DNA of 64,000 nucleotides from Protonemura montana (taxonomy: Eukaryota; Arthropoda; Insecta; Plecoptera; Nemouridae): the NCBI GenBank assembly GCA_947568835.1, contig OX387602.1, positions 11,707,021-11,771,020 on the forward strand, read 5' to 3'. Shown piece after piece: positions 43,812 through 58,800 of this stretch (position 1 is the stretch's first letter; every line of letters begins with the position of its first letter). The notes below the pieces were generated by a model. It was not told the DNA's origin. It made no database searches and was given only the letters and a program-made list of their open reading frames with translations. Position numbers and translations under genes: made by a program.

Positions 43812-46800
43812 GTAAGACTGCGAATTTGGTTGCTTTGCAACATAATGATGCTTTAGAGGATGAATTAAAAAGTACAAATATTTGAAGGCTTGAAATGTAG
43901 CCCTGTTTTCGCTGTTAATAAGTGCGGAAGAGGTTGAGATAGAAGTCTTTGCAGAGTTATTTGATTTTGCTAAATGCTGTCAAGAACGTGACAAATATCG
44001 GGGTTAGTAAAATGGTAATTAAGCCGTATTTCAGTCTCTGCATACATTTTTGCTCTTTTTATTTTAACCTTCATAAACAATAGTACCTACATACTAGGCG
44101 CATGTGTTTATTTATATTTGTACCTACCTACCTACCTACCTACCTACCTACCTACGTTCTTATCATCTCAAATATTTACTCGGTATGATAATTAACTTGA
44201 AATTTCTACCTGTATTCACGTTATTAGTGAGCCTCAATTGCTAATTTATTGCAGTGTGATGAAACAACCTTGCAAAGTACTGATTTAAAATACGTTGCTT
44301 GTTCGTTCATACTTTTGGGCCCAAACAGCATAGCTATAGTGATGGACTAGTGTGTGTGTTCTTTTTGTTGCTCATTAGACAATCTTACTCGGCGACAGTG
44401 GCGTAGGAAAGACATCATTGTTGGTGCAATTCGACACTGGAAAATTTCAGACTGGAAATTTTTCTGCCACCGTTGGTATAGGATTCACGGTAAGGGAAGA
44501 GTTTGACATACAGTTTGTAGATTTATTGTGTTTTGCATGCTTTTTCTTATTAGATGTGCTGAGATCTGAAATGCCATTTTTAAGACAAATTAACCAACTC
44601 GTGAAATATGAACTAATTGATATGAAATGTTGGTGAAGGCTATTGGTGAACGTTATTGGGATGTAGGTCAGGGTACGTTTAGGTTTAAACGTATCAAAGA
44701 AGTTAACACAATATCCAGAAAATATCGCTCGAAGCTAACTGGTGAAGTATCGTTGTCCTTTAGATCTGTAGATGTAGGATTTTTCAGATGTTGGGGATAA
44801 AGAAAAAGCCAAACTGTCGTTACTCGTTTGACGCATTTTAATATTATTGTACAGTAATTAGATCATAGGATCTGTACTTGAAATGTATTAAAGATACGTC
44901 GAGATTGAGAATAAGTCCACTTTAAGCGAAAAATCAAGGTTAAAACAGGCGGTATGAAAAGGGTGAAGGGATTGATTTATGTGTACAAAACACGCAGGGA
45001 CGGTCCACTAAGTTAAGGTTGGGGTAGGGCAAGGAATCAGACGCGCCAATAATTCAGAAACACATGGCATGCATGCAAGTAGAACTTTCTGTTGTGACAG
45101 AGCTTCTGCAGTTTTTTGACAGAATTGCTGGTTATCGGCTCATAAGTGCATTTTTTTTGGACTGGCATACCTACAACTGTCCTACACAATGTCTGCAATT
45201 TATGGTTGGAATCATTTATTCTGAAAAGAAAAATGCAGCTTTTAATAATGTTAGAGAAATGGGACGTGCATCGTAAAGCATGCCTAACTGCGTCGAACAA
45301 AAATCACGATCAAAAACCTATTTTTCAGGCTGGAGGGAATTTGAACGAATACTCGTTTGGAGTAACAAGAATATTTTACTATGCGCTAGAGACGAGTAGG
45401 TACACATTTCCTTTGTATTCATTGAAAATTTCTCAAAGTAAAAGAGCTTGCGTTTTTTATAATCATCGTGGAAGGACAAGTACTTTTTAGTTAAAAGAAG
45501 TTATCAGGGCTGACTGGAGCAAAAATCATTCGAACATTGTGCTCCCGGGAGTTCTAGAGAGAGCAGCTCTGTATGTGCAACCGAAGTGAAGTACATACTC
45601 TGCAAGTTGTACAAGTGCAACGAAACATATGCATGCCAGCTGGCCCCTGGGGTTTTCCCGGGGTTTTCTAGGAATTCCCAGACTAGATGCAGCCTCCGAG
45701 TCTCGACCGCCGCTGCAACCATGTCACCTGTCACCATGACTACATCCAATCACGTCCACCGATCTAATTATCGATCGTTCGAACCTTCACTTCTGAGAAT
45801 TGCGTCTGGGTGATATTTGCAGCTCACGTGCAGTAGATAGTTTGGTATTCTTGACTAAAAGAATTTTATTGTATTTTTAAGTTGGTTTAGCAATATCAAA
45901 AATGGAAAGGAAGCTAGACCGGAAAAATGTGCAACCGAACCGGGATATGAACCCGGGACCTCCTAATTACCGGTCGTGTGCTCTATCAACTGAGCAATCC
46001 GGACACATATTTAAACTTTCGCGGGGGTGGGATAAGGGATCCCCACAAGGGGGAAGAGGCCGAGGTGAATCGTATGGACGAGTTCGTAGCAACTCCATGA
46101 TTAGATGCTAATTCAATGGCCTCAGGACAGAATGATCTGTCACTATTCCTCCAATCCCGTGTTATCGCGAAAGACTTACGGTTGTTGCAGTGTTTTTTGG
46201 TTTTTTCTGGCATTTCCACTAGGAAGCTTAAACCAGCAAGCGGATGATGGAAAGGAAGGATTTGATTGTGCCGCCGGCGTATTCTGTACCCTGAAACAGA
46301 GTTAATAGCTTTTAAAAAATAACATTTTAAACTTATCTTATTAGGTTATTTTGCAGATTTCATCAATATTAATAATTTTAAAAATTGCAAAAAGTTTCAT
46401 ATTTCTAAGTTTACTTGTCTTTAAGATGTTTTTGCTATTATCTACTCAAATTTAACTTACAAATCACATTTTTTAAATATAATAATTTTGTATGCTACGC
46501 TAATTATAAATACAATATAGACATTTTCTATAATTCATCTAAGCATCTTCTCAGAATCTGATGACAGGTCACATAGTTCTAAAAATTAATAAGTGTTAAC
46601 TTAATCCGAATATTAACATAAAGATCAAACGTAAACATAACAACATAAACATAAAACATCAAACATAAACATCAACCTGTCAAAGCCATAGTTGCACCCA
46701 GCTTCTCAAACTTGTAGGAGTGCTGAAGAGCACAAAGGCAATGTGGTAAACACGGAGGAATGGTATACCCCACACCCAGCCGTAATCTGGGCTCTGACAC

Positions 46801-55800: not shown

Positions 55801-58800
55801 TCGACGCATTTTTAGCGAGTAGGTACTTTATCATTCGCCGATGGAGTTGCTTTCCCGATAAGGGTGCAGCATTGATTTTGAAAGCAAGCGAATTAATTTC
55901 CTGGGTCAGTCACTGTTTGCTGGATTCTGTGTTGGCATTAATTCAGTACAATTTCGAACAGTTTTGGAGAGATAATTATGGTAGGCGGCCATGCATTATT
56001 AATGATAACTAGCTTCAGCCCAGTATTAACTGTACAACAAAGCGAATACTCTATCGTTTCGGAATGAAAATATCAACTACTCAAGAACATTTTTGGCCCA
56101 ATTGGCACATTCAATCGCCTGATTTAAGTCTTCAAGGGTGCAAGAAGTTAATTGATGATATTTATGGGACCAAACAAACTCAAATGGCTCTAAAAAAGAC
56201 AATTTCTAAAATTATCAAATTGGGATTGTAAAATCCTGATTTCAATGCCAATTTTTAATTAAATTTCCGCACTTAAGAAAAAATTATGTACTTTTACTTA
56301 TACATATCACTTTTTCATGATATATGTAAACTTTCACGGAGCTCTTTTTGGAGCCTCCTCGGCTGCAGCGCTCTTAAATCTGCAAAACCTAACCTAACCT
56401 TTCACCGTGTCAGCAAGCTTTTCATATGTTAAATAACTATCTAAGATGTGTGATTAAACGCAAGTGGCAATTGTTCAGGACAATGGGAGAGGTTGGCCAG
56501 CAAAACGTACGACGTATAGTCTTGAGTCGGTCGAATCAGTGGAATACTCGACTGAGCGACGTGCCTATCGGCGCCGAGGACGCGCTGGCGTCGCGACGGC
56601 GTTCATCCACCGCGATTGCAGCGGCCAAGAGTGACAAGGTGGTCTTGCCATCCTCTCGGCGGCAGGCTGAACCCGTCGATCTTGTCTGCAAGGTTAGACA
56701 CCCTACATGTTACCACAAAGGATGAGCGTCCAAAGTGGATTCTCACGTTGTAAATTGTGAATTGAGAAGTGCGTTTTTTTCTAGATCCATAGCGAACTTT
56801 GTAACAACTGCGTTATCTAGAGCACTGATGTGTTCATATCCACCAAATTTACGGAAATTGTCTCATTATTTTTGCATACATCAGCGCGTCTAGAACATAA
56901 GACTTCTTAAACTAGCAAGGTCATATCTCCAGTTTGATAATGAGCAGTTTGATGATTTGTTGAAAAGTTTTGAATATTTTTTGGCAACGAGTCTAGAATT
57001 GAATGAAAAGCTGTAATTCAGATGAAAGCTAAAATCAAGAAACTTAATCAATATCGAATATCAAAATGCACGTATTTGTCATGGGGGTTGGATGGTTTGT
57101 CAGCAAACTATCCAGTCTACCTCCCCCACCCCCGCGCAGCCACGGACGCCAAACACTAACGAAGCTAAGAGGGGGGGGGGGGGGAGGGGGGGGGGGAGGA
57201 TATAATTCTCAATTAAATAGCTTAATAATAATCCCAGACGACTAGACCGTTGACGGAACAGTGCACGCCGGGATTCTGCCAGGAAAATCGACCGGTGCAA
57301 GAGTGCATTTAATTGGTTGTTGGAGGGGAGAGGGGGGGGGGGGGGGGGCACTCGCACGGACAATTAGTTTCAAAGTTAGGAGCGCAGACTGCGCTTCTGT
57401 CAGAAGTTGTGGAAGATTATGTGTCCCTCTGAAAGGCTTCCTGGCTCTAGAATATACTCATAAGCTTTTAATATAATTTTATTTATTTAGAACATTTCTT
57501 TTATATGGCTCAAACTGGTCATCCATTTACCCTGACAAAACAGACAAAGACATGTTATATATACACATGATAATTCGTAATTCGTATTCCAAATTGAACA
57601 TCACTGCATTATCATATATCTATAATGAGTTTTATAATTATATTTTTCAAGAATATATTCACCACATATTTTCAGGGATTTTCCCATTTTTCCTATGAAT
57701 TCTCGCCCCAAAACGCAGAACTTTGAAATTTAAGTACCTTTAGCAGCCCGGCGGAGTGCGCCATTTCTTGCTGTTCCGCATGTATATTCAAACGTTTTAC
57801 AGGTGATGCTTCTTGGGGATTCTGGAGTCGGCAAGACGTGTCTCCTCGTTAGATTCAGGGATGGACTTTTTCTCTCGGGGAACTTTATTTCCACGGTTGG
57901 CATCGATTTTAGGGTGAGAACAGTGAGATACTGTGTACCTACGTGTCTGTGTGTGTGTTTGTGCGTGTGATTTCAGTGGACTCTTCATACCTAATGTCAC
58001 CTTTAACCTTCTGCCGCCATAGTCGCTCGTCGTCGCAATTCTTATCCTACACTTTACTGCGTTTTCTTTTCGTCCACAAACTATAAGTATCTAAGACAAA
58101 TGGCATACTATTCAGATCTCAGTCTCGTCTAGTGCATCTGTGTTTTTCAGCATGGCATGCATTTCTAAAAACGCATGTTCCATCCATTACCTACAGTAAA
58201 GTTTTTAATTGACTGTGATACCATAACTGCATGAACTGTATTATACCAATCGTTTCTATTCATTTCTTTATGTCATCGTTACAGAACAAAGTTGTCAATG
58301 TGGACGAATCAAAAATCAAACTCCAGATATGGGACACAGCTGGACAAGAACGTTTTAGGAGCGTTACCCACGCATACTACAGAGACGCTCACGGTAATTT
58401 TTGCATAGTTTTAGTCCATCAAATTCTGTCATCGATGATTTAACAACCAACTGTTTACTACTTTTCTTTACAGCGTTGCTTCTACTTTATGACGTAACAA
58501 ATAAAACTAGTTTTGACAACATTCGAGCATGGCTGGGGGAAATAAAAGAATACGCTCAAGACGATGTAGTCATCATGCTTTTAGGTAAGAAACTTGAATC
58601 CGTAGCATTGCATCCGAGCAGTATTGCTATTTTGACTGCTTTAGATCGGTGACCATTTTGCCCTTCTTAGGTAACAAAGCCGATTGCGGTTCGGAAAGAC
58701 TCGTGAGGAGAGAAGATGGAGAACGTCTTGCCAGAGAATACAGTGTAACTTTCATGGAAACCTCAGCCAAGACTGGGCTCAATGTAGAACTTACCTTTAT

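Follow-up and report, generated by a model that had tools for sequence, protein, structure and literature searches.

The stretch of DNA analysed here (hereafter the window) comprises 64,000 nucleotides of Protonemura montana (G000:C1:11707021-11771020, in a genome of 258.5 Mb and 34 contigs) and carries a Rab gene on its + strand. The coding exons that we could assign to this gene, in window positions, are the following.

43596..43811, + strand: candidate first coding exon 1a, 72 aa, ending ...AHK in Lys in phase 0, donor AAG/gtaagact
44379..44489, + strand: alternative exon 2a, 37 aa, P-loop to RabF1 (VGIGFT)
56483..56692, + strand: candidate first coding exon 1b, 70 aa, ending ...VCK in Lys in phase 0, donor AAG/gttagaca
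57803..57913, + strand: alternative exon 2b, 37 aa, canonical Rab26-like P-loop to RabF1 (VGIDFR)
58285..58393, + strand: common exon 3, WDTAGQE and switch II
58474..58584, + strand: common exon 4, body exon
58671..58812, + strand: common exon 5, NKAD and ETSAK
59302..59410, + strand: common exon 6, C-terminus CPPCNT and stop

Both modules retain intact frames and splice sites. Spliced together, 1a, 2a and the body give 265 aa, and 1b, 2b and the body give 263 aa, each with one terminal stop and with two C-terminal Cys (CPPCNT) that could serve for prenylation. Long poly-G tracts, which could form G-quadruplexes, lie in the introns at 53103-53158, 57171-57217 and 57322-57368; the last two fall in the interval from 1b to 2b, about 430 to 630 bases 5′ of the 2b acceptor. 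Upstream and on the opposite strand, a reading frame at 35934-36398 (-) contains the Pfam CBX7_C motif (CBX family C-terminal, E 1.1e-14) and may belong to a Polycomb-CBX-like gene.

Both forms, whose exon joins were made by hand, contain a complete Ras-family domain: positions 1-161 of the 162 of PF00071 are covered, at 197.1 bits for the 1a-2a form and 199.7 bits for the 1b-2b form (cut-off 21.6 bits). In NCBIfam the sole match was to the general small-GTP domain. Among solved structures, the closest to the 2a form is human Rab-26 (2G6B, 257.5 bits), followed by Rab-8A (181.9 bits). As far as the own-genome search extends, which scores its best candidates only, the gene is single-copy: among 103 matches, no outside locus comes near the 86-97% identity of this gene's own exons, exon 2b, at 63%, being the exception inside the locus. 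The common body is also present once in the window, exons 3-6 scoring 186 to 234 at one place each and 22 to 30 at the next-best place. Taken as a whole, i.e., including the pairing of 1a with 2a and of 1b with 2b, the best explanation is very probably that the locus is the organism's Rab26/37-subfamily gene, coding for a switch protein of secretory traffic and carrying a duplicated exon 2. In the same assembly, 20 contig-end stretches were read for telomeric repeats, two of them having N at both extremities: (TTTGG)n arrays occur at three of them (C1 right, C11 right and C13 left; L109, L119 and L122) and (TTAGG)n arrays at two (C12 right and C16 left; L121 and L126). TTAGG is the usual telomere repeat of arthropods, and chromosome ends made of TTTGG would be unusual.

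The first-pass annotation had described 2a and 2b as two exons of 111 nt, in phase 0-0, encoding the same part of the GTPase with clear similarity and separated by 13 kb, and this description is borne out. Both exons are open and flanked by AG and GT, both encode the segment running from the P-loop to switch I and RabF1, and their starts are 13,424 bases apart. Of their 37 residues, 24 are identical, and the ungapped BLOSUM62 score is 115. As a chance control, we used a first-order Markov model of the window to generate 60 sequences of 64 kb. Over these, the per-sequence best score against 2b averages 20.9, with a maximum of 30, and in the real window the next-best place scores 20 for 2b and 23 for 2a. 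By itself, 2a matches Pfam Ras in a whole-genome search (28 bits, E 2.3e-4). At the nucleotide level, 63 of 111 positions are identical, distributed as 25, 26 and 12 of 37 over codon positions 1, 2 and 3, and the NG86 method returned no dS for the pair (saturation). Because matches are concentrated at the first two codon positions while dS is saturated, the duplication is probably old, an age visible only as saturated third positions, and was probably retained for its protein. A tandem copy produced by an assembly error or by haplotypes was rejected, since third positions agree at only 12 of 37 codons. The same pattern bears on the idea that 2a is a relic, i.e., a duplicate that no longer enters the mature mRNA. 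Indeed, an intact frame of 37 codons is by itself weak evidence for use, but conservation at the protein level with third positions near chance, together with intact GTP-binding residues, intact splice sites and a good pyrimidine tract, makes a relic very unlikely; the near-identity of 2a to a putative alternative exon of human RAB37 (see below) argues in the same direction.

Where could 2a come from? To place it among the Ras-family GTPases of the genome, we fetched 55 segments out of the 149 Ras-family matches listed, namely 53 starting at profile position 1-3 and two starting at positions 7 and 8. A P-loop segment was recovered by pattern in 53 of them; the other two (L106 and L107) were included in a comparison on a 31-residue core. 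Among the 53 segments, the best match of 2a besides itself is 2b (115), followed by L086, which we take to be Rab27 (91, 21/37 identical), and the best match of 2b is 2a (115), followed by scores of 106 and 104. On the 31-residue core, 2b is again the closest to 2a (94), ahead of L086 (76), L106 (67) and L107 (54). For 2b, the core gives a tie at 94 between 2a (20 identities) and L106, presumably Rab1/8-like (18 identities), with L086 at 90. Thus, the closest relative of 2b is not unambiguously 2a; the tie concerns 2b and not 2a. An intron interrupts several segments after T-I-G, L087, L098 and L104 being examples, and the scores of these segments are therefore too low.

A second character connects the two exons. 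By a simple pattern applied to the 55 segments, 18 residues separate GK[ST] from the switch I Thr in 2a, in 2b and in one Rho-type segment; the spacing is 17 in 38 segments, 16 in five, 15 in one and 19 in one, and seven gave no reading. Relative to most Rabs, this corresponds to an extra residue between alpha-1 and switch I, human Rab26 aligning without a gap and Rab8A with one. We noticed this spacing as a Rab26/37 mark in the structure match and did not take it from a published definition. Since 2b is the best match of 2a and the 18-residue spacing is common to both, recruitment of 2a from another Rab is unlikely, and the simplest reading of the sequences is that 2a would have arisen by copying of exon 2 within this gene. 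We also considered that another Rab gene might begin at 2a, and rejected this for the window, where exons 3-6 have no second copy; nor is there a comparable locus among the genome matches scored. With one set of body exons in the window, 2a joins the body of this gene or none. Elsewhere among the Ras-family matches, Rho-like GTPase frames that are unspliced and diverged are clustered on contig C3 at 15.22-15.23 Mb and 18.45-18.50 Mb and on contig C13 at 7.23 Mb, and one of them contains an internal stop; these clusters suggest a lineage-specific Rho expansion.

The exchange of 2b for 2a had been described as a swap of the core of a Rab. This holds for the primary sequence but not for the residues contacting GTP: GDSGVGKT and the switch I Thr are kept in 2a. 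The differences lie in alpha-1 (e.g., S for C after GKT), in the residues before TVG, and in RabF1 with its following residue, where IDFR (2b) becomes IGFT (2a), hence VGIDFR and VGIGFT. Among the 16 segments with the motif T-x-G-x-x-F, the fifth place is D or E in 14, falls in an intron in L087, and is G in 2a alone. Positions in alpha-1, in the switch I flanks and in RabF1 contact exchange factors and effectors in Rabs. As the GTP-binding residues are kept and RabF1 is changed, 2a more likely alters the choice of partners than catalysis. The common body exons include switch II, which has been stressed as the main determinant of effector choice (PMC7818423), and that both forms have the same switch II speaks for a modulated rather than a wholly new specificity.

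Upstream of each exon 2, and at a short distance, lies a separate candidate first coding exon ending in Lys in phase 0, as had been proposed. From this arrangement, the first-pass annotation had derived two promoter-exon 1-exon 2 modules feeding one body. Two exon 1-exon 2 modules are indeed what best fits the sequence, because there are one body, two homologous in-phase exon 2s and two in-phase candidate first exons; 1a and 1b are candidates for the transcription starts. The 1b ATG at 56483 was our choice, 56426 being also possible in a frame open from 56393, and the 1a ATG is preceded by TAG-GTA, of which the TAG could be an acceptor. A simple look for Inr, TATA, DPE and CpG features at 1a and 1b, made without a chance control, gave nothing distinctive and no convincing promoter element: the TATA pattern does not occur in the 1 kb before either exon, and the Inr pattern is absent before 1a and occurs three times before 1b.

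Starting from the observed anatomy, homology and reading frames, we infer two kinds of transcripts: those beginning at 1a would take 2a, those beginning at 1b would take 2b, and both would continue into the common exons 3-6. Promoter choice or exclusive splicing had been put forward as the means of exchange. Promoter choice explains the transcripts of 1b, which lack 2a because 2a is located upstream of 1b, but it cannot remove 2b from a transcript of 1a. Indeed, such a transcript contains 2b, which has an acceptor and a donor, and the combination of 1a, 2a, 2b and the body stays in frame and encodes 302 aa. Promoter choice alone is therefore insufficient, and in 1a transcripts the splicing machinery would have to skip 2b. 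The alternative that this open frame permits, i.e., a protein containing 2a and 2b as a tandem P-loop segment, is extremely unlikely, as a second P-loop would sit where the interswitch strand follows in the Rab fold. Of the six internal acceptors, that of 2b is the poorest in pyrimidines (fraction 0.59, against 0.71-0.82 for the others and 0.82 for 2a), and, although this comparison rests on six sites and is weak, its poor tract may contribute to the skipping.

As 1a-2b is in frame too, strict pairing of 1a with 2a and of 1b with 2b is not forced by the sequence. This, together with the equal length and phase of 2a and 2b, would also suit classical mutually exclusive splicing, in which 1a transcripts take 2a or 2b according to splicing factors and not to the promoter. 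However, transcripts of 1b, which lies downstream of 2a, have no access to 2a in cis; a candidate first exon is located shortly before each exon 2; and the 13 kb between 2a and 2b make steric exclusion unlikely. Moreover, no clear looping element was found between the introns, the region from 43.5 to 58.5 kb containing just two weak AT-rich inverted-repeat pairs with arms of at least 22 nt (77% and 83%). We thus consider mutually exclusive splicing unlikely. Under the paired scheme, the gene would produce two Rabs that agree in switch II, C-terminus and nucleotide pocket but not in N-terminus, alpha-1 and RabF1, and these two forms may differ in their choice of exchange factor or effector.

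In looking for this exon pair outside the insect, a search of viral contigs confirmed no animal relative, a pattern scan gave three candidate matches, and a search of genome contigs gave 49 loci, which by their titles are 48 Asgard-archaeal sequences and one Gammaproteobacteria MAG. The human gene RAB37 provides a comparison. Its 216-aa isoform would consist of a 24-aa first exon ending in His-Lys, then a 37-aa alternative exon, and the parts assumed for the isoforms sum exactly to the published lengths of 216 and 223 aa. With the sequences so assumed, the putative alternative exon is identical to 2a at 32 of 37 residues (24/37 for 2a and 2b), and the canonical exons of human RAB37 and RAB26 match 2a at 22/37 each and 2b at 29/37 and 32/37, respectively. 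Likewise, with the assumed RAB37 sequences, there are six of the 37 columns in which 2a and the human alternative exon agree with each other and differ from 2b, canonical RAB37 and RAB26. A 2a equivalent in a relative is presumably present in the 216-aa isoform, consistently with the published isoform lengths. The alternative N-terminal exons of human RAB37 are probably orthologues of the 2a/2b pair, and, if the assumed human sequence is right, the origin of the pair lies before the protostome-deuterostome split. The published data describe human RAB37 forms of 182, 186, 191, 216 and 223 aa, with splicing that differs at two N-terminal places and one C-terminal place; expression in cerebellum is high for four transcripts and absent for three others, which are broadly expressed elsewhere (PMC9714508). 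In the portions of its text considered here, that paper states neither a P-loop exon swap nor which lengths correspond to the cerebellar transcripts, and its Figure 5 alignments may show the swap.

One ancient pair, and not a local oddity, is the simplest reading. We think it likely that the Rab26/37 gene acquired a pair of alternative P-loop/switch I exons, each behind a first exon of its own, before the split of protostomes and deuterostomes and has kept it since, providing animals with a second Rab whose RabF1 is non-canonical (D changed to G) and that surveys have not listed as a Rab in its own right. Two Rab surveys do not, as far as their vocabulary shows, deal with such a pair: the words "splice", "exon" and "isoform" (PMC3425129) or the word "splice" (PMC3192815) are absent, and the exon pair is likewise not described in the portions covered of PMC9813115, PMC2813875, PMC8471046 and PMC12650716. 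We believe that human annotation already contains a pair of this kind; in the main-text passages covered of the literature searched, we found no description of it as a conserved exon swap. Should the pair prove conserved throughout Bilateria, a single Rab gene would give two GTPases with the same switch II and different RabF1, and null mutants or experiments treating Rab26 or Rab37 as one protein would mix two activities. The differing Rab26 results obtained with overexpressed variants and with a null mutant in the fly (PMC8016483) could then be re-examined by isoform. The exon pair would also constitute a natural test of the contribution of RabF1 with the rest of the Rab held constant.

Among known systems, RAB6A and RAB6A′ are produced by a pair of mutually exclusive exons. 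These isoforms differ by the substitution of a segment, an event common to human and mouse, and overall identity is 97% even when a human isoform is compared with the non-corresponding mouse isoform (PMC1950890). In contrast, 13 of the 37 residues distinguish 2a from 2b, and they lie in the nucleotide-binding exon. Fly Rab26, which we assume to carry a 2a-like segment, offers another comparison. In its gene, ATG1 lies in exon 1 and ATG2 in exon 2, a 9,760-bp deletion spans both, and the predicted mass is between 41 and 45 kDa; the fly gene thus has two start exons, as proposed here, and a P-loop exon of its own for each start is not stated in the part of the paper used (PMC8016483). For C. elegans, a short isoform of rab-37 is mentioned in the text of PMC3504004, in which a table note gives two splice variants, among the rab genes, for rab-3 and 4R79.2 only. 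Mammals have Rab26 and Rab37 as paralogues (PMC7818423), unlike this genome, where one gene was found among the matches scored; the parallel with human RAB37 lies in its two N-terminal splicing differences, its forms of 216 and 223 aa and the distinct tissue patterns among its transcripts (PMC9714508).
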